A stretch of 36,084 nt of DNA from assembly GCA_021324255.1 (NCBI GenBank), contig JAJPJL010000055.1:1-36084 (forward strand), in the 5' to 3' direction. The notes beneath the pieces were generated by a model. The model was not told the DNA's origin, searched no databases, and saw only the letters and a program-made list of their open reading frames with translations. The stretch comes from Bacillota bacterium. GTDB taxonomy: Bacteria; Sysuimicrobiota; Sysuimicrobiia; Sysuimicrobiales; Segetimicrobiaceae. Positions 16,858 to 25,751 of this stretch are shown one piece after another (positions within the stretch are counted from its first letter, which is position 1; every line of letters begins with the position of its first letter). The translations under genes and the position numbers were made by a program.

Positions 16858-17775
16858 TCAGTGGCGCGCGCCGCCTCGGTCCGGCGCGTGGACACGCACG
16901 CGCTCGGCGCCGCTGTACACGTTGAACTGCTCGCCCCGGAGAAAGCCCACCAGGCTCACCCCGAACTCCCGCGCGGTGTCGACCGCCAGGCTGCTCGGCG
17001 CGGAGACGGCGCAAAAGACGGGGATCCCCGCCGCCGCCGCTTTCTGCACCAGCTCGAAGCTGGCGCGCCCGCTGACCATCACGACATGGAGATCGAGCGG
17101 GACGCGCCCGTCGAGCCAGGCCCAACCGACCAGCTTGTCCATCGCGTTGTGCCGGCCGACGTCCTCCCGGAGCGCCACGAGACGACCGTCGCGGTCGAAG
17201 AGCGCGGCGGCATGCAGGCCGCCGGTGGCGGCGAACAGGCTCTGCGCCCGCCGGAGCGTCCCCGGCAGCGCGGCGAGCGTCCCCGCGTCCACGACGAGGC
17301 CGCCGCGGACATGCGCGAGACCGCGCAGGCGCAGCGCCTCCAGGGTCGCCTTGCCGCAGACGCCGCACGCGCTCGTCGTGTAGAAGTGCCGTTCCAGCGC
17401 GGCGAGCGCCGGCAGGACCGGCGACCGCAGCGCGACGTTCACGATGTTGTACTGCTGCGCGCGGTCGACCTCGGGGTCCGCGCAATACGACATGCGCGCG
17501 ATCTCATGCGGGTCGCGGAGCACGCCCTCGCCGAACAGGAACCCCGCGGCGAGCTCGAAGTCATGGCCGGGCGTGCGCATCGTCACCGCGACCGTGCGCG
17601 TCTCGCCCCCGGCCACGAGCCGGATCTCGAGCGGCTCCTCGGTGGCGACGACGTCGGTGCGCGGGGCGCTCGCGCCCGCGCGCACGGTGTGGATCGCGAC
17701 GCGCGTCTTCGCCCCGGCCCGCACGGCCGTGCCGGCCGGCTCCCCGCGGCGGGGTACGCGCCCCGCGCTGCCCAT
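16858..17775 (-). CDS. fdhD: Formate dehydrogenase accessory sulfurtransferase FdhD
   Basis: Delivers sulfur from a cysteine desulfurase to the Mo(or W)-bis-MGD cofactor, required for active formate dehydrogenase. 305 aa. The redox-active CGVCGK motif is present (Cys137/Cys140), with TEEPLEIRL and MRTPGHDFELAAGFL before it and DVGRHNAMDKL and VSGRASFELVQKA after it, all FdhD hallmarks. Start ATG at 17775 with GAGGAGGGCGGG upstream; the frame is open further into the neighbouring gene. Last gene of the minus-strand formate dehydrogenase region, 32 nt after a solute-binding protein gene. Confidence 0.95.
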   Translation of the reverse strand: MGSAGRVPRRGEPAGTAVRAGAKTRVAIHTVRAGASAPRTDVVATEEPLEIRLVAGGETRTVAVTMRTPGHDFELAAGFLFGEGVLRDPHEIARMSYCADPEVDRAQQYNIVNVALRSPVLPALAALERHFYTTSACGVCGKATLEALRLRGLAHVRGGLVVDAGTLAALPGTLRRAQSLFAATGGLHAAALFDRDGRLVALREDVGRHNAMDKLVGWAWLDGRVPLDLHVVMVSGRASFELVQKAAAAGIPVFCAVSAPSSLAVDTAREFGVSLVGFLRGEQFNVYSGAERVRVHAPDRGGARH

Positions 17776-17807
17776 GACGATCCCGCCCTCCTCGGTCGGG
17801 GCGGCCC

Positions 17808-19418
17808 CTACTTCCACGTCGCGTAGATGGCCGCCCACTTCTCCGTCGGTACGATGCTCACGCCCTCGAGGTGGCTGCTCGTCACCACGTAGAAGTTCTG
17901 CGCCCACAGGAAGATCCAGGGCGCGTCATGCCAGATCAGCTCCTGCGCCTGCTTGTAGATCGCCCGGCGCTGCTCCGGGTTCATGGTCGTCTGCCCGGCG
18001 AGCAGCAGCTCGTCCACCTTGGCATCCTTGTAGAACGTGGAGATGTAGCCGTGCGGCGGCCACAGGCCGGAGTAAAAGACGCCGAAGAGCTGGGAGGCCG
18101 CATCCAGGTACGGACCGGCCTGCCCGAGCATGTACATCTGAATCGGCGTGCGGTCCGCCGGGGTCGCGAGCGCGCCGATGTAGCTCGGCCAGTCGGCGGT
18201 CTCCACCGCGGCCTTGACGCCGACGTTGGCGAGCTGCGCGGCGATGGCCTGGGCGGCCTGATAGTCCTGGATGTAGCGGCCCGTGGGCGCCCGGAACGCG
18301 ACGCTGAAGCCTTGGGGGTAGCCGGCTTCGGTGAGCATCCGCTTCGCGCGCGCGGGATCGAACGGCCAGCCGCCCGGCTGGATCCGCGTGTAGCCGAACT
18401 GGTTGGGCGTCGTCGGCGCTTCCAGCACGGTCGCGAGGCCGAAGAGCACACTGTGGATGATGGCCTGCTTGTTGACGGCGTAGTTCATCGCCTGGCGCAC
18501 GCGCACGTCCTTGAACGGGCCCCAGAGGTTGTTCATCCCCACCCAGATCGCGCGGTCGGTCGGGCCCTCCACGACGCGCAGCGACGGATCCCTGCGCATC
18601 GCGGGCACGTCGGGCGCGGGCGGCGCGAACGCCATCTGCACGTCGCCCGCGCGCAGCATGGTCTCGCGGGTCCCCGCGTTGGGGACGACGCGGAAGATCA
18701 CCTGGTCGAAGTACGGCTTGCGCCCCCAGTAATCGGGATTGCGCACCAGCGTGATGTGGTCGCCGTGCACCCACTCCTTGAAGATGTACGGCCCGGAGCC
18801 GGCGTTGACCGGTCCCAGCGCGAGCTTGGCGTTCCCCAACGCCTTGGCCGCGGCCGGCGACACGATCTCGGCCGCCGTGGTCGCCAGCTCTTCCGGCAGC
18901 GTGGCGCTCGGCTCCTTGAAGTGCAGCACGATCGTGTAGGGGTCGGGGATCTCGATCCGGCCGGTGTCGAGCGCGCTCCAGTAGTAGCGTGACGAATTCC
19001 GGACCGACGGATCCAGCATCCGCTCGATGTTGAACTTGACGGCCTGCGCGTCGAAGGGGGTGCCGTCTTGGAACTTGACGCCCTGGCGCAGCTTGAACGT
19101 GTACGTGCGGCCGTCGGGGCTCGCCGTCCACGAGGTCGCGAGCTGCCCGACGAGCTTGGTGTACTGCGGCTGCCCCGGGGCGACGCCGGACCGCTCGTCG
19201 TTGTACCAGATCAGCGGATCGTAGATGTAGTCCACGATGTTCGAGACCGTGGCGGTCGTCTGCCCGGCCGGGTCCAACGTGTCCGCGTCGATGCCGAGCG
19301 CGATCGCAAGGGTGGCCGGCGCCGCCGCCAGGCCGCCTCCCGGCACGCCCGCCAGCGCCGCAAAACCGAGACACGCAGCGACACCGGCCGTCACAAGCCG
19401 CGTCGTTAGGGTGGCCAT
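17808..19418 (-). CDS. ABC transporter substrate-binding protein, family 5 (peptide/nickel type)
   Basis: 536 aa secreted or lipid-anchored binding protein. N terminus MATLTTRLVTAGVAACLGFAAL is a signal peptide; VAAC could be a lipobox, though an AAAPA cleavage site is equally possible. ALGIDADTLDPAGQTT, YDPLIWYNDE, WTASPDGRTYTFKLRQGVKFQDGTPFDAQAV and the long C-terminal lobe are typical of OppA/DppA/NikA-type proteins. The ligand cannot be inferred. No permease or ATPase of this class is in the window, so it is an orphan here, between the formate dehydrogenase genes and fdhD. Confidence 0.88.
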   Translation of the reverse strand: MATLTTRLVTAGVAACLGFAALAGVPGGGLAAAPATLAIALGIDADTLDPAGQTTATVSNIVDYIYDPLIWYNDERSGVAPGQPQYTKLVGQLATSWTASPDGRTYTFKLRQGVKFQDGTPFDAQAVKFNIERMLDPSVRNSSRYYWSALDTGRIEIPDPYTIVLHFKEPSATLPEELATTAAEIVSPAAAKALGNAKLALGPVNAGSGPYIFKEWVHGDHITLVRNPDYWGRKPYFDQVIFRVVPNAGTRETMLRAGDVQMAFAPPAPDVPAMRRDPSLRVVEGPTDRAIWVGMNNLWGPFKDVRVRQAMNYAVNKQAIIHSVLFGLATVLEAPTTPNQFGYTRIQPGGWPFDPARAKRMLTEAGYPQGFSVAFRAPTGRYIQDYQAAQAIAAQLANVGVKAAVETADWPSYIGALATPADRTPIQMYMLGQAGPYLDAASQLFGVFYSGLWPPHGYISTFYKDAKVDELLLAGQTTMNPEQRRAIYKQAQELIWHDAPWIFLWAQNFYVVTSSHLEGVSIVPTEKWAAIYATWK

Positions 19419-19497
19419 ATCATCCGCCCCACGGGGGGCACCCCCTTTCGGCGTCCCGCCGCCGGGCAGTGATTGCGCGCCGCGCACGACTCGGGGA

Positions 19498-19576: not shown

Positions 19577-19624
19577 GACGGCCGGCTTGAACCCTTGTCG
19601 GAGTTCGGCAATGACGCATCAGCG
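19577..19624 (+). repeat. Dispersed intergenic repeat, copy B
   Basis: 48 bp, collinear with copy A (36/48 identical) and matching copy C in its first 28 bp (24/28). Contains CGGCCGGCTTGAACCCTTG and ends GACGCATCAGCG. As in copy A, the final part includes the stop codon (19621-19619) of the adjacent minus-strand gene, here the iron-sulfur half of formate dehydrogenase. The stem change GCCGG to GTCGG keeps a G-U pair. Confidence 0.6.
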
Positions 19625-20458
19625 GCCGCCCGGATCCGGGTTCACATACGTAAATCCGAACCGTCCCTTGACGCACAGGTTGCCGCGCGTGATGTCGTGG
19701 TCCGCGGGAGACGTGACCTTGACGATGCGGTTGCCCTGCACGTGCAGCTCGAGGGCGCAGCCCACGCCGCAGTACGGGCAGATCGTCTCCGCAACGTGCT
19801 GCCGGCTCTCGTCCCACTCGCCCGCCTGCCGCATCCGGTGTTCGATCAGGGGCATCAGGGCGCCGGTCGGGCACACCGCCACGCAGTTTCCGCAGAAGAC
19901 ACAGCGTGACTCCAGGAGCGGCGCGTCGGCCCCGGTGTCGATGCGGGCCGCAAACCCGCGGCCGGCGACCGTCAGCGCAAACGTATGCTGGGCGTCCTCG
20001 CCGCAGGCTTCGACGCACTTGTAGCAGAGGATGCACTTCGCGTAGTCGCGTACGTACAGGTCGTTGTCGTCGCGCAGCGGTTCGAGGACCCGCGCGACGT
20101 CGCTGCCAAACCGCGCCGGGTCGCCGTGGTACGCGGCGAGGTGCGCGGCGAGCTCGGGCGCCGTGGAGGTGTCGACCGACGACGCGAGCATCTCGAGGAC
20201 GACCTTGCGGGCCCGGCGGACGCGCTCGGTGTCCGTCCGCACCCGCATCCCGGGTTCCACGCGGCGCGAGCAGGACGGCACGAGGGCGCGGCTGCCCTCC
20301 ACCTCTACGACACAGGCCCGGCAGACGTTGACCGGCGTCAGGTTGGGATGGTAGCAGAGGGTGGGCGCGTCCATGCCGGCGCGCCGGAGCGCTTGCAGGA
20401 TCGTCATCCCCTCGTCCGCCCCGAGGGTCCGCCCGTCGACCTCGATGACAATGCTCAT
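19619..20458 (-). CDS. Formate dehydrogenase alpha subunit, detached N-terminal iron-sulfur half
   Basis: 279 aa electron-transfer protein. Domains in order: [2Fe-2S] ferredoxin-like (Cys35, 46, 49, 63); two [4Fe-4S] ferredoxin motifs (Cys142/145/148/152 and Cys186/189/192/196); then the small [4Fe-4S] domain that in one-chain enzymes starts the molybdopterin domain (ICPYCGVGC with Cys227/230/234, and NLCVKGRFG with Cys262). The His-Cys cluster seen in NuoG and many FdhA proteins is missing; residues 91-140 have no Cys. The protein ends FTYVNPDPGGR, exactly where homologues continue into PDRLxxPLIR, which here begins the catalytic gene 22260-24224. ATG overlaps the NuoF-like stop (ATGA). Confidence 0.88.
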   Translation of the reverse strand: MSIVIEVDGRTLGADEGMTILQALRRAGMDAPTLCYHPNLTPVNVCRACVVEVEGSRALVPSCSRRVEPGMRVRTDTERVRRARKVVLEMLASSVDTSTAPELAAHLAAYHGDPARFGSDVARVLEPLRDDNDLYVRDYAKCILCYKCVEACGEDAQHTFALTVAGRGFAARIDTGADAPLLESRCVFCGNCVAVCPTGALMPLIEHRMRQAGEWDESRQHVAETICPYCGVGCALELHVQGNRIVKVTSPADHDITRGNLCVKGRFGFTYVNPDPGGR

Positions 20459-21732
20459 ACGACCTCACCCGGGCGTCCGTGCGCCGCGCTCGCGCCGCCG
20501 TTGCTCGACGACGGCGCGCCCGGCCGGAGCGCGAGCGCGCTCAGCACCGCGCCGGCCGCCGTTTGACCGAGGCCGCAGATGGACGCGTCCGTCATCGCCG
20601 CGCCGATGTCCGCGAGCAGTTGCGGGTCCTCCGGCCGCGCCCGGCCCGACGCCAACCGCGTGACGATCTCCAGCTGCCGCTGCGTGCCGACCCGGCACGG
20701 GACGCACTGGCCGCACGATTCCTCCTGGAAAAACCGGGCCACCCGCAGCACGATATCCCACAACGACGCCGTCTCGTCGAGCACGATCACGGCGCCGGAT
20801 CCCACGGTACCCCCGACGGGCTGGAGGCCCTCGAAGGTCAACGGCAGATCCAACCGGTCGGGACCGAGGAACGTGCCGGCGGCCCCGCCGCACAGCACGG
20901 CCTGCAGGCGCCGGCCCCGCCATACGCCGCCCGCCAGCGCCAGCAGCTCCCCGAGCGTCGTCCCGAACGGGACCTCGTACAACCCCGGGCGCTCGACGTG
21001 CCCGCTCACGCAGAACAGCTTCGTCCCGGTGGACCGGTCCGTGCCGTAGCGCCGGAACCCGGAGGCGCCCTCCAGTACCACGATCGGGACGTTGCACAGC
21101 GTCTCCACGTTGTTGACGAGCGTGGGGTCGCCAAACAGGCCCGCCTGCGTCGGGAACGGGGGCTTGTTGCGCGGTTCGCCGCGGCGGCCCTCGACCGAGT
21201 TGAACAGCGCCGTCTCCTCGCCGCAGATGTAGGCGCCCGCGCCGCGGACGACGCGGATCCAAAAGGCGCGCCCGGTCCCCGCGACGTCGGCGCCGAGGAG
21301 CCCCGCGCGCTCCGCCTGGTCGATCGCCCGCCGGAGACGCGCGGCGGCGAGCCGGTACTCGCCGCGCACGTAGACGAGCCCGTCCTCGGCTGCGACCGTG
21401 AGCCCGGCGATCGTCATCGCCTCCACGACGGCGAACGGGTCCTGCTCCATCAGCACGCGATCCTTAAAGGTGCCCGGCTCGCTCTCGTCGGCGTTGCAGA
21501 CCACCCGCCGCCGTCCGGCGGCTTCCGCGACGGCGCGCCACTTGCGGCCGGCCGGAAACGCCGCGCCGCCGCGCCCGAGCAGTCCCGAGGCCTCCAGCTC
21601 GGACAGCACCCACGCCGGCCCGCGCTCCGCGACGCGTGCAAGCGCCGCGTAGCCGCCGAGCGACCGGTACGCCTCGAGGCTCTCCGGATCAGCGACGCCG
21701 GCCCGCGCCAGGAGCCGCCGGACCTCAGGCAT
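20455..21732 (-). CDS. NADH-binding NuoF-like beta subunit of NAD-dependent formate dehydrogenase
   Basis: 425 aa. Carries the NADH site GLLGRGGAAFPAGRKW (about residues 50-65), FMN-binding CNADESEPGTFKDR and GAGAYICGEETAL, and the C-terminal [4Fe-4S] motif ESCGQCVPC with Cys340/343/346 and distal Cys386 in SICGLGQ. The role is to pass electrons from the iron-sulfur chain to NAD+, or the reverse. The ATG at 21732 lies inside the end of the NuoE-like gene (8-nt overlap); the frame is open upstream but lacks conserved sequence. Like FdsB/HoxF but without a fused NuoE domain. Tail after residue 400 is Gly/Ala/Ser rich. Confidence 0.92.
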   Translation of the reverse strand: MPEVRRLLARAGVADPESLEAYRSLGGYAALARVAERGPAWVLSELEASGLLGRGGAAFPAGRKWRAVAEAAGRRRVVCNADESEPGTFKDRVLMEQDPFAVVEAMTIAGLTVAAEDGLVYVRGEYRLAAARLRRAIDQAERAGLLGADVAGTGRAFWIRVVRGAGAYICGEETALFNSVEGRRGEPRNKPPFPTQAGLFGDPTLVNNVETLCNVPIVVLEGASGFRRYGTDRSTGTKLFCVSGHVERPGLYEVPFGTTLGELLALAGGVWRGRRLQAVLCGGAAGTFLGPDRLDLPLTFEGLQPVGGTVGSGAVIVLDETASLWDIVLRVARFFQEESCGQCVPCRVGTQRQLEIVTRLASGRARPEDPQLLADIGAAMTDASICGLGQTAAGAVLSALALRPGAPSSSNGGASAAHGRPGEVV

Positions 21733-22270
21733 CGCCGCCCGCCTGCCCGAGCGCCGCCGCGATGACGCCGGCCGTCGCGTGCCCGAGTTCGCGCCCGCCG
21801 GCCACGGCGACGGGCGCTTCCTCGCACCGCCCGAGGCACGGCACCGTCTCCCAGTCGACCGCCGGCGGCGCCGCGGCGCCCCGGCCGTTCCGCGCATCGC
21901 CGTGCGCCCCGCCCGCAAATCGCCGCGGCGGTCCGTAGCGGGCCTGGAGGTCGCGCACGAGGACATCGGCGCCCCGCAGCCGGCACGATACGTCGTCGCA
22001 GACGTGGAGGATCGTGCCGCGCGGCGGGTCGAGCCGGAACAACGCGTAAAACGTCGCGACCCCCCAGACGTCGGGAAATGGCAGGTTCATCCGGTCGGCG
22101 AGGTGATGGAGCGCGCCGCGGGGCAACCAGCCGAGATCGTCCTGCACCGCATGGAGGAGCGGCAGCAGGTCGGACCGGCGCGGCTCGGCGCCCACGCGGG
22201 CGAGGGCCCGGTCCACCGCCTCGCGCTCCCGCTCGCTAGCGGGCGCCGGGGGATTCGGCTCAATCGGCAC
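21725..22270 (-). CDS. NuoE-like [2Fe-2S] gamma subunit of NAD-dependent formate dehydrogenase
   Basis: 181 aa thioredoxin-like ferredoxin. The [2Fe-2S] ligands are HVCDDVSC (Cys91, Cys96) and VPCLGRC (Cys145, Cys149), the standard C-x4-C / C-x3-C NuoE pattern. The N-terminal helical part with LLPLLHAVQDDLGWLP and VWGVATFYALFRLDPP is also typical. A loop of about 20 residues rich in Gly/Ala/Arg (120-138) is inserted before the second Cys pair. Start is GTG at 22270, overlapping the catalytic gene by 11 nt, with GGAGGAG upstream. Works with the NuoF-like subunit as the diaphorase module. Confidence 0.92.
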   Translation of the reverse strand: MPIEPNPPAPASEREREAVDRALARVGAEPRRSDLLPLLHAVQDDLGWLPRGALHHLADRMNLPFPDVWGVATFYALFRLDPPRGTILHVCDDVSCRLRGADVLVRDLQARYGPPRRFAGGAHGDARNGRGAAAPPAVDWETVPCLGRCEEAPVAVAGGRELGHATAGVIAAALGQAGGDA

Positions 22271-24224
22271 GCGACATCTCCTCCTGTCCCACGACCTCGT
22301 CGCGCCACCCGCCCCGCGCCGCGACGCGCTCGATGGCCACCGCCGTCGCCTTGAACTCCGCGGTCCCCGATTTCGGATCCCACGCGTCGATCGTGAGCAC
22401 GTTGGTCGGCACCGTGTCGGGATGGTGGAGCGTCATGAAGCAGAGCCCGGGCGCGAGCGTGTCGTCGAGCTTGACCGGTACGAGGAGCGACCCGCGGCGG
22501 GACCGGACGCGCGCGAGATCCCCGGGCTCAAGGCCGAGCCGCCGGGCGTCCGCGGGCCAGATGCAGAGGTACTCGGTCTGCGGGCGCGGCGCCGCGTAGC
22601 CGCGCGACTGGGTGCCGGTGTTGTAGAATTCGAGCCTGCGCCCCGTCGTGAGCATAAACGGGTACGCGTCGTCCGGCTGCTCCACGGGCGGTTCCCACCG
22701 GACCGGGATGAGCGGCGCCCGCGGGCCGTCGACCGGACGCCGCCACAGGCGCTCGTGCAGGAACTTGCTGCCCGGGTGGCCCTCGTCGGGGCACGGCCAC
22801 TGCAGCCCGCCGGCCTCGGCGAGCCGGGCGTAGGACATCCCGCGGTGCCGCGCGGAGAGGCGCCGGACCTCGTTCCACACGTCCTCCGCGCCCGTGTACC
22901 CCCACCGGTGCCCCAGGCGGCCGGCGAGGTCTTGCAGGATGGCGATGTCGTCGCGCGCCTCCCCCGGGGGATCGACCGCCTTGCGCATCAGCTGCACCCG
23001 CCGCTCGGAGTTCGTGACCGTGCCGTCGCACTCGCACCACGACAACGCCGACGGCAGGACGACGTCGGCGATCTCGGCGGTCTGGTTGAGCGCGACGTCC
23101 TGGAGCACGACGAAGTCGAGGCCGCCGAGCAGCTCGCGGCTGCGGTGGAGATTGGCCTCCGACATGAGCGGGTTTTCGCCGATGATGTAGGCGGCGCGGA
23201 TCTCGCCGCGCTCCATGCCCTCGAACATCAGGCTCTGGTGGCGCCCGCGCCGGGACGGGAGCGCCGTGCCCCAGGCGGCCTCAAACGGCGCGCGCTGCTC
23301 CGCATCCTCCACGTCCGCGCCCCCGGGCAGGCGGTTCGGAATGGCCCCCATGTCGCCGCCGCCCTGCACGTTGTTCTGGCCGCGCAGCGGGTCGAGGCCG
23401 GAGCCGTACCGCCCGACGTGCCCGGTGATGTTGGCCAGGTTGCACAGCGCATACACGCCGTCCGTCGCGTTGTGATGCTCGGTGATGCCGAGCGTCCAGC
23501 AGATGATCGCGCGCGGCGCCCCGGCGTACATCCGGGCCACACGGCGGACGGTGTCCGCCGCGATGCCGGTGACGCGCTCCGCGAACTCCGGCGTGTAGGT
23601 CGCGATCGCCTCGCGGTACGCCTCGACCCCGGTCGTGGCGTGCGCGATGAACTCGCGGTGCTCGAGCCCCTCCTCGAAGATCACCCGCGCGATCGCGTTC
23701 GCGAGCGCGATATCCCCGCCGACGCGGATCGGCAGGTGCAGGTGCGCGAGCTGCGCCGTCGGCGTGCGCCGCGGATCGACGACGACGAGGCGCGCGCCGT
23801 TGCGCATGCCGCGCAGCATGTGATGGAACATGATCGGGTGGGTCTCGCGCGGGTTGGACCCCCACAAAAACAGCAGGTCCGTGTGCTCCATCTCCTCGTA
23901 CGACGTCGTGCCGCCGCCCGCCCCGTACACCGTCTCCAGACCGGAGACGCTCGGCGCGTGTCAGGTCCGGTTGCAGCTGTCGATGTTGTTGGTCCCGAGC
24001 ACCACCCGCATGAACTTCTGCGCGACGAAGTTCACTTCGTTGGACGCCTTGGAGCAACTCAGGCAGCAGAAGGCGTCCGGCCCGTGGTCGCGGCGAATCT
24101 CGCGGAACCGCCGCGCCACCAGATCGAGCGCCTCGTCCCAGGCCGCCGGCGCAAGCGCGCCGGCCCGCCGGATCAAGGGCTGCGTCAACCGCGCCAACGG
24201 CCGCTGATACCCTCGTGCCGCCAT
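22260..24224 (-). CDS. fdhA: Selenocysteine-containing formate dehydrogenase, catalytic (molybdopterin) half, UGA readthrough
   Basis: One gene of 654 residues if the in-frame TGA at 23963-23961 is read as selenocysteine (Sec88). Before it: FCCLSCSKASNE with the conserved Lys, and LGTNNIDSCNRT; after it: HAPSVSGLETVYGAGGGTTS with the conserved His. This is the FdhF/FdhA active site T-[Sec/Cys]-H-A-P-S-V. A SECIS-like hairpin follows. The remainder (DLLFLWGSNPRETHP, VVVDPRRT, ITGHVGRYGSGLDPLRGQNNVQGGGDMG, ENPLMSEANLHR, then the C-terminal beta-barrel with GRRLEFYNTGTQSR) is a full molybdopterin oxidoreductase. It lacks the N-terminal CxxCxxxC [4Fe-4S] domain, supplied by the gene at 19619-20458. 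ATG at 24224 follows GGAGG. Confidence 0.93.
23931..23963 (-). promoter_or_regulatory. Selenocysteine UGA codon and bacterial SECIS hairpin
   Basis: TGA at 23963-23961, then 18 nt, then the apical loop GGUCU (23942-23938) closed by a perfect 7-bp stem CGUCUCC (23949-23943) / GGAGACG (23937-23931). From memory, E. coli fdhF has the same 18-nt distance and a GGUCU loop bound by SelB. The hairpin is coding sequence at the same time. This supports Sec insertion over termination. Confidence 0.9.
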
Positions 24225-24292: not shown

Positions 24293-25684
24293 TTACGGAG
24301 GCGGCGAGCCGAAGGCCACGAGGACGTTGGCGGGAGCGGCGGCGCCGACGAGCACGAGGTCGCGCCCGAGCGTGACGCCGCCCTTCCACGCGAACCCGCC
24401 GGTGGCGCCGTGCCACAGGACCCGGCCGGTCCGCGCGTCCACCGCCCACACGACGCCGGCGTAGTCCGCCGCGAACACCACGCCGCCCTGTGAGACCGCG
24501 GGCGACCCCAGGATCTGCTTCGCCCCCGTGAACTGCCAGACGATCCGGCCCGTCGCCGCATCGAGCGCCACGAGCCGCCCCGGCAGGTTTGGCGAAAACG
24601 TGGTCACGCCCGGCGGAAAGTCCTGCGTGCCGACGAAGATCCGGCCGAACCCGACGGCGCCGCTACCCAGAATTTCCGCGACCGCGGACGGGCCCGAGAG
24701 GCTGGTCCGCCACCGCAATGCGCCGGTCCGAGCGTCGACCATATAGTACGCGCCGTCCTTCTCGCCCGCGCCGACCCCGAGTCCCTGGGGGAGCACCACG
24801 AGATTCGGCGTCGCGAGGAAATCCTGATCCCGGGTGTCGTGAGGATACGTCGGCCCAAACGCCCACCGGAGGCGCCCCGTCGCGGCGTCGAGGGCCAGGA
24901 TCGAGTCCGACCCCACGTCGGGGCCGGCCGGCGGCGCGTCCTTCGGCGTCGGGTTCCCCGTGGCGACAAACAACGTGCCCGTCTGCGGATCGACGGACGG
25001 GCTGTCGAACACGCCCGCCCCGCCGCCGCCGGCGTACTGCGGAACGACGTACGTCCAGACGACGCCGCCGGTCACGGCGTCGAGCGCGACGAGGCGGCCG
25101 CGCGCGGTCGGCTCGTCGTAGATGCCGTCGATCCCCACGTAGACGCGGTTGCCCCACACGAGCGGCGCGGACCAGATCGTCTCGCTCTTGGACGGGTCGC
25201 CGACGCGGGTGCGCCACATGAATCCCCCGGTGGCGGCGTCGAGGCACACGACATCCGTCTCCGCCGTCGCGGCGTAGACCCGCGGCCCGGCGAGCGCGGG
25301 CGTTCCGTTGATGCCGAGCGTCGGGAACCCGTACGCGGTCTGGCCCCGCGCGCCGAGCGCGACGTGCCACCGCTCGGTTCCCGTGCGGAGATCCAGCGCG
25401 TACAACGTGCCCCTCGACGATCCCACGTAGGCGGTGCGCTCGTCCAGCGCCGGGCTGCCCGGGATCGCGCCGTCGGCCGCAAATCGCCAGATCGGGCGCA
25501 GCGCGCCCACCTTGGACGGGGCCATCCCGGCGTCCGGCTGGAACGACGACATGCCGAAGTCATGGCCCCGCATGGGCCACGCGGCTCCGGCGGGCGGGGC
25601 CGGCGGGGCTTGCGCCGCGGCGAGCGCGGCGAGCGTCAGGCACGCGCAGGCCGCGACGGCCGCGGCGCGGGATGCTCGGTGCAT
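24293..25684 (-). CDS. Secreted PQQ-type beta-propeller repeat protein
   Basis: 463 aa with an N-terminal signal peptide (MHRASRAAAVAACACLTLAALAAAQA), so exported. At least seven blades carry the signature [A/V]LDxxTGxxxW: YALDLRTGTERW, CLDAATGGFMW, ALDAVTGGVVW, ALDAATGRLRW, MVDARTGALRW, ALDAATGRIVW, AVDARTGRVLW. This is the quinoprotein-dehydrogenase-like fold. I see no clear catalytic Asp/Asn or heme c motif, so it may be a binding or scaffold propeller and not an enzyme. The ATG at 25684 follows GGAGGT. It lies between the sugar hydrolase gene (67-nt gap) and the formate dehydrogenase operon, same strand; functional link unproven. Confidence 0.85.
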   Translation of the reverse strand: MHRASRAAAVAACACLTLAALAAAQAPPAPPAGAAWPMRGHDFGMSSFQPDAGMAPSKVGALRPIWRFAADGAIPGSPALDERTAYVGSSRGTLYALDLRTGTERWHVALGARGQTAYGFPTLGINGTPALAGPRVYAATAETDVVCLDAATGGFMWRTRVGDPSKSETIWSAPLVWGNRVYVGIDGIYDEPTARGRLVALDAVTGGVVWTYVVPQYAGGGGAGVFDSPSVDPQTGTLFVATGNPTPKDAPPAGPDVGSDSILALDAATGRLRWAFGPTYPHDTRDQDFLATPNLVVLPQGLGVGAGEKDGAYYMVDARTGALRWRTSLSGPSAVAEILGSGAVGFGRIFVGTQDFPPGVTTFSPNLPGRLVALDAATGRIVWQFTGAKQILGSPAVSQGGVVFAADYAGVVWAVDARTGRVLWHGATGGFAWKGGVTLGRDLVLVGAAAPANVLVAFGSPPP

Positions 25685-25751
25685 GCCTACCTCCCACATC
25701 CGGTATCGGACGGGCGCGACGGTCTGTCCTTCGCCGCGCGCGGGCGGCCCG

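Follow-up and report, generated by a model that had tools for sequence, protein, structure and literature searches.

A formate dehydrogenase alpha subunit (FdhA) of the FdsABG type is a single chain of about 950 aa with a NuoG-like N-terminal part. A locus in which this subunit is encoded by two genes, placed in reversed order around the genes of a diaphorase, raises the question of whether the chain is truly split or the gene has been broken, and of which part of the enzyme has moved to the second chain. The window, i.e. the whole stretch of DNA analysed (36,084 nt; GCA_021324255.1, contig JAJPJL010000055.1, Segetimicrobiaceae), derives from a draft genome of 142 contigs. The locus is a tight four-gene operon located on the minus strand (window 24224-19619), in the order catalytic FdhA chain, NuoE-like, NuoF-like, Fe-S chain. 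The relevant features are the following.

22260..24224, minus strand: catalytic chain, FdhA domains without the [4Fe-4S] domain; 654 aa, ATG at 24224, selenocysteine (Sec) codon 88
23931..23949, minus strand: bSECIS-like apical hairpin, CGUCUCC-GGUCU-GGAGACG; 7-bp stem, loop GGUCU
21725..22270, minus strand: NuoE/FdsG-like [2Fe-2S] subunit; 181 aa, PF01257 (2.7e-25)
about 20455..21732, minus strand: NuoF/FdsB-like FMN/NADH subunit; 425 aa from MPEVRRLL, PF01512, PF10589, SLBB
19619..20458, minus strand: Fe-S chain; 279 aa, [2Fe-2S], two [4Fe-4S] and a C-terminal FdhA-type [4Fe-4S] domain
16858..17907, minus strand: FdhD sulfurtransferase; NCBIfam NF001943, 318 bits against a cut-off of 269

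Neighbouring genes of the operon overlap, in transcription order, by 11, 8 and 4 nt. FdhD likely serves the maturation of the catalytic chain. A gene for a family-5 extracellular solute-binding protein (window 17808-19487), found elsewhere only in the nearest relative, separates fdhD from the operon. Directly upstream of the operon is the gene of a PQQ-type beta-propeller protein of 468 aa (window 24293-25699), not conserved with the operon.

The two alpha chains, of 279 and 654 aa, are complementary. Pfam domains identified in the catalytic chain are Molybdopterin (PF00384) and Molydop_binding (PF01568) only; the Fe-S chain features Fer2_4, Fer4-type domains and, at residues 221-273, Molybdop_Fe4S4. 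Positions 52-672 of the Fdh-alpha model TIGR01591 (NCBIfam, 672 positions) are covered by the catalytic chain, which, with one domain absent, scores 647.5 bits, under the cut-off of 666.25. Positions 1-49 sit on the Fe-S chain, and no single chain matches the entire model above cut-off. Aligned by sequence to Rhodobacter capsulatus FdsA (6tg9_A), the Fe-S chain spans residues 27-303 and its catalytic partner residues 299-949, which puts the break near residue 300-305, immediately C-terminal of the proximal-cluster domain. The original prediction was accurate on these points: FdhA is split, its pieces lie in reversed order around the diaphorase genes with the coordinates and overlaps reported, and the CxxCxxxC [4Fe-4S] domain, missing from the catalytic half, is found at the C terminus of the last gene, beside the [2Fe-2S] and two [4Fe-4S] modules. 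The C227/C230/C234/C262 motif of this domain is invariant, and all 16 cluster cysteines are conserved in each of 28 aligned split and fused sequences. The His-Cys cluster, which had also been reported as missing, has no ligands in the Fe-S chain of the window, nor in any of the aligned split relatives. Near the lost site, some split Fe-S chains carry an insert of about 25 residues (APAAAGERDRREPGHHEAPVG, with a PGHH motif; L113:6995-7909, L085:6995-7900).

The idea that the molybdopterin active site has to be rebuilt from two polypeptides did not hold. The catalytic chain holds Sec88-His89, Arg281 and the two pterin-binding Pfam domains. With UGA written as Cys, Sec88-His89 and Arg281 do not vary across 26 sequences, as expected of the Fdh-alpha metal site. 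In E. coli FdhF, Lys44 lies between the pterin and the cluster. Its counterpart is presumably Lys264 of the Fe-S chain, which is invariant. It is the proximal [4Fe-4S] cluster, with the neighbouring lysine, that has moved to the other chain; this is the electron exit and not the active site. The predicted structure of the catalytic chain (pLDDT 83.7) superposes on formate dehydrogenases over 614-634 residues: ForC 8rqz_C (Z 41.0, 2.7 A over 618 residues), FdhF 1fdi (Z 39.4, 3.0 A over 634) and FdsA 6tg9_A (Z 38.6, 2.8 A over 619, covering FdsA 305-941). The model of the Fe-S chain is of moderate quality (pLDDT 71, below 50 at residues 146-189), and can be superposed along its entire length on chains of the NuoG type (Z 16-19, 3.6-4.8 A).

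A substrate other than formate is conceivable, as the family includes nitrate reductases and other enzymes. The Arg281-Gly-Gln and Sec88-His89 motifs, however, place the catalytic chain in C/UH RGQ, a motif class of formate dehydrogenases (PMC8808070), most of the solved proteins that match best, in sequence and in structure, are formate dehydrogenases, and FdhD is encoded nearby; oxidation of a different substrate is quite improbable.

The catalytic frame contains a single in-frame UGA at codon 88 (window 23963-23961, minus strand), and is therefore open only if UGA is read as selenocysteine. The codon aligns exactly to the selenocysteine of E. coli FdhF (X in 1aa6). In the first survey UGA was found in all 64 split loci, window included, in which codon 88 was aligned; fused relatives have UGA or Cys at this place. 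The inner six pairs of the downstream hairpin are kept in 64/64 split loci (window included; 58 different sequences), and compensatory changes involve both sides of the stem (e.g. C-G to U-A, G-C to U-A, C-G to G-C). The loop is GGUCU, in a few loci GGGCU. The folding energy is unexceptional in GC-rich DNA (z -1.37), and no Rfam family matched the window at gathering thresholds; the SECIS assignment thus rests on loop and covariation. SelA and SelB are encoded by adjacent genes in the same genome, with tRNA-Sec (anticodon UCA) close by, and SelD is encoded as well. tRNA-Sec was identified above cut-off in 6 of 7 other split-bearing genomes tested. Judged by codon, 3' hairpin and decoding genes, the catalytic chain is a predicted selenoprotein. 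The SelD gene of this genome (L162, G000:C92:36492-37412) also contains one in-frame TGA, and SelD is probably a selenoprotein itself. Selenocysteine is not strictly tied to the split: L171, L172, L173 and L174, found in Actinomycetota with genomes of 6-10 Mb, have Cys at this position, and are members of the split clade with the same gene order.

A stop codon inside the catalytic frame and a 142-contig assembly could denote a decayed or misassembled gene, a deletion or a contig error having disrupted FdhA. The stop, however, is a conserved selenocysteine codon, the genes overlap tightly, the cluster cysteines are invariant, and the arrangement recurs in other genomes. Homologues were gathered by searching 100 relatives and by a single scan across species genomes; among them, the order catalytic chain, NuoE, NuoF, Fe-S chain was found at 73 loci, and in 73/73 the Fe-S chain ends 0-20 residues past the Fe4S4 domain. 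Fused relatives have the order NuoE, NuoF, alpha, and their chain continues into the catalytic part. The split was also identified on contigs of 9.5, 7.7, 4.8, 4.6 and 4.4 Mb, including single-contig chromosomes. Decay or misassembly has a negligible probability, and the four overlapping genes do look like a working operon. Since the same arrangement is conserved in relatives, the split of the FdhA chain is real, and is neither an artefact nor due to chance.

Split loci are not restricted to one lineage. According to record titles, which come from metagenome bins and may be individually wrong, they reside in eight phyla: Bacillota, Acidobacteriota, Chloroflexota, Actinomycetota, Planctomycetota, Rokuibacteriota, Dormiibacterota, Eremiobacterota. 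A near relative of the window locus is L071, titled Bacillota (isolate Centralia_MAG_233). In the phylum of the window, strong matches to the split Fe-S chain were found in 9 of 43 genomes. The catalytic chain was used as query in genomes sampled per phylum, and matches at E up to 1e-170 were counted in 52/400 genomes of the phylum of L106 (titled Chloroflexi), 32/396 of that of L089 (Acidobacteriota) and 56/396 of that of L109 (Acidimicrobiia, Actinomycetota). These counts (about 8-14%) take in a few fused or short forms, about a dozen in Actinomycetota, and the true frequency of the split there is somewhat lower. Three Acidobacteriota matches resembled fused forms on account of surrounding open frames of 904-946 aa, but these loci proved to be split as well; the frame simply stays open on the upstream side. 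The best plasmid matches examined correspond to fused FdsA-type relatives. Split formate dehydrogenases appear to be common in uncultured soil bacteria, as a widely conserved rearrangement of a known enzyme. This spread in soil bacteria of many phyla was not part of the original prediction, which did not include the selenoprotein status of the catalytic chain either.

Module shuffling is common in this superfamily, and the two chains might belong to different enzymes, the catalytic chain borrowing its Fe4S4 domain elsewhere. Three other Molybdop_Fe4S4 matches were found in the genome, in open frames of 711-1007 aa. The one on C53 is NuoG of complex I, that on C125 is a protein of 696 aa with all matches far below cut-off, and the third is on C137; none of the three is on a short chain able to supply a lone domain. 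No other strong match was found in the genome by the Fdh-alpha search. A second full-length fdhA next to an unconserved locus, which would have spoken against a functional split, is thus not what the genome contains; nor is an assembly error plausible with the same split on single-contig chromosomes of relatives. Moreover, the genes of the two chains keep the same places in the operon across loci. In the tree of catalytic chains the split members group in a single clade (support 100/99), and so do the Fe-S chains in theirs (SH-aLRT 99, with long branches outside the clade), a pattern that joint inheritance of the pair would produce. That the two chains belong to different enzymes is therefore very improbable.

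The sister of the split catalytic clade is, in this sample, a set of short Sec-containing FdhA proteins (100/99) found in Actinomycetota (L181:7333-9480, L182:6897-9332, L183:8275-10407), which have Fe4S4 and catalytic domains in one chain, no NuoG-like part and no evident redox partner. That of L182 measures 811 aa, and its gene lies between FdhD, on the upstream side, and a gene for a sodium:solute symporter. The split may have originated from an FdsA-like alpha chain which was cut and reordered, or from a short FdhA which handed its Fe4S4 domain to a HoxU-like subunit. As the nearest relatives outside the clade are short FdhA without a NuoG-like part, simple fission of an FdsA-type chain is not established.

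Taken as a whole, the locus very probably encodes a cytoplasmic, Sec-containing, NAD-linked enzyme, an FdsABG-type formate dehydrogenase with an alpha subunit composed of two polypeptides. The assembly of a complex, its electron route, NAD as acceptor and the direction of catalysis are inferred. The catalytic chain would bind Mo- or W-bis-MGD, with Sec88, His89 and Arg281, and convert formate to CO2; FdhD would load the sulfur ligand. Electrons would cross the subunit interface from the pterin to the proximal [4Fe-4S] cluster (C227, C230, C234, C262, with K264) at the C terminus of the Fe-S chain, and move through two further [4Fe-4S] and one [2Fe-2S] clusters of this chain to the NuoF-like subunit ([4Fe-4S], FMN), where NAD+ would be reduced. 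In FdsABG the path runs through bis-MGD, A1, A2, A3, A5, B6 and FMN, and A4, the His-Cys cluster of Rhodobacter FdsA, is off the path, at the dimer interface (PMC7171172). A1, A2, A3 and A5 map here to the Fe-S chain, B6 and FMN to the NuoF-like chain, and A4 is missing. All path clusters being present and the missing one off-path, the electron path can be complete. The original prediction had not considered the off-path position of A4. Loss of this cluster predicts that the complex may be monomeric, or dimerize through other contacts.

The acceptor might alternatively be NADP+ or, by bifurcation, NAD+ plus ferredoxin. Related modular NuoEF-like enzymes bifurcate, and HylCBA-FdhA of Clostridium acidurici has been described as bifurcating (PMC5736913). 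The NuoF-like chain of the window, in contrast, has NuoF core domains only, with no C-terminal ferredoxin domain, and lacks the additional cluster-binding domains described for HylB. Acceptors other than NAD+ are, on this ground, unlikely.

Similarities to known systems are only partial. FdsABG of R. capsulatus (6tg9/6tga) and Methylorubrum FDH1 (7vw6) share domains, clusters A1, A2, A3 and A5 and the NuoEF-like diaphorase with the system described here; in structural alignment, sequence identity to the catalytic chain is 35-37%. FdsA, a single chain, has Cys and A4; here alpha is made of two chains, the gene order is different, Sec is present in most members and A4 is lost. HylCBA-FdhA also has a NuoG-like protein (HylA) separate from FdhA, and Sec in FdhA, but that FdhA reportedly retains a [4Fe-4S] domain of its own, and HylB is of the bifurcating type (PMC5736913). 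E. coli FdhF (1aa6), which contains Sec, and HDCR FdhF (7qv7) are the solved catalytic chains closest by sequence, but the Fe4S4 domain is on the same chain and the redox partners are different. The short Sec-FdhA of L181-L183, although sister to the split chains, are single-chain proteins. In the portions available of a study on Sulfobacillus, Sec-containing catalytic subunits of cytoplasmic formate dehydrogenases are reported beside NuoEFG-like genes (Justice et al. 2014; PMC4378227). The arrangement is perhaps the same; transfer of the Fe4S4 domain to the NuoG-like gene is not mentioned in the part of the text compared. A literature search, with most subscription journals outside its scope, found no account of the FdhA split. 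This is apparently an undescribed subunit variant of FdsABG-type NAD-dependent formate dehydrogenase, hence a known enzyme rather than a novel type of system. The solved formate dehydrogenases used for comparison carry the proximal [4Fe-4S] cluster on the chain of the molybdenum site; the surprise is the location of this cluster on another chain, and the spread of this solution.

Whether the split is of benefit to the cell can be answered only tentatively. The catalytic gene is the first of the operon, and failure at the UGA therefore costs only 87 residues. It is possible, though doubtful, that the arrangement is adaptive: the chain dependent on Sec, metal and FdhD would be made first and mature without an Fe-S cluster of its own, and the Fe-S/NADH arm would dock only onto finished chains. 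The proximal cluster would then be a detachable electron exit; less would be lost when UGA decoding fails, and other electron carriers may gain access to the site.

The catalytic chain is naturally cluster-free, and provides a test of the need for the proximal cluster in Mo insertion, maturation and CO2 reduction; the split also marks a ready break point for the engineering of CO2-reducing enzymes. Genes of this type are a trap for annotation, as a UGA interrupts the catalytic gene, which also falls short of the curated cut-off, and the Fe-S chain resembles a fragment of a hydrogenase or of NuoG. Counts of formate oxidation in soil may therefore be too low.
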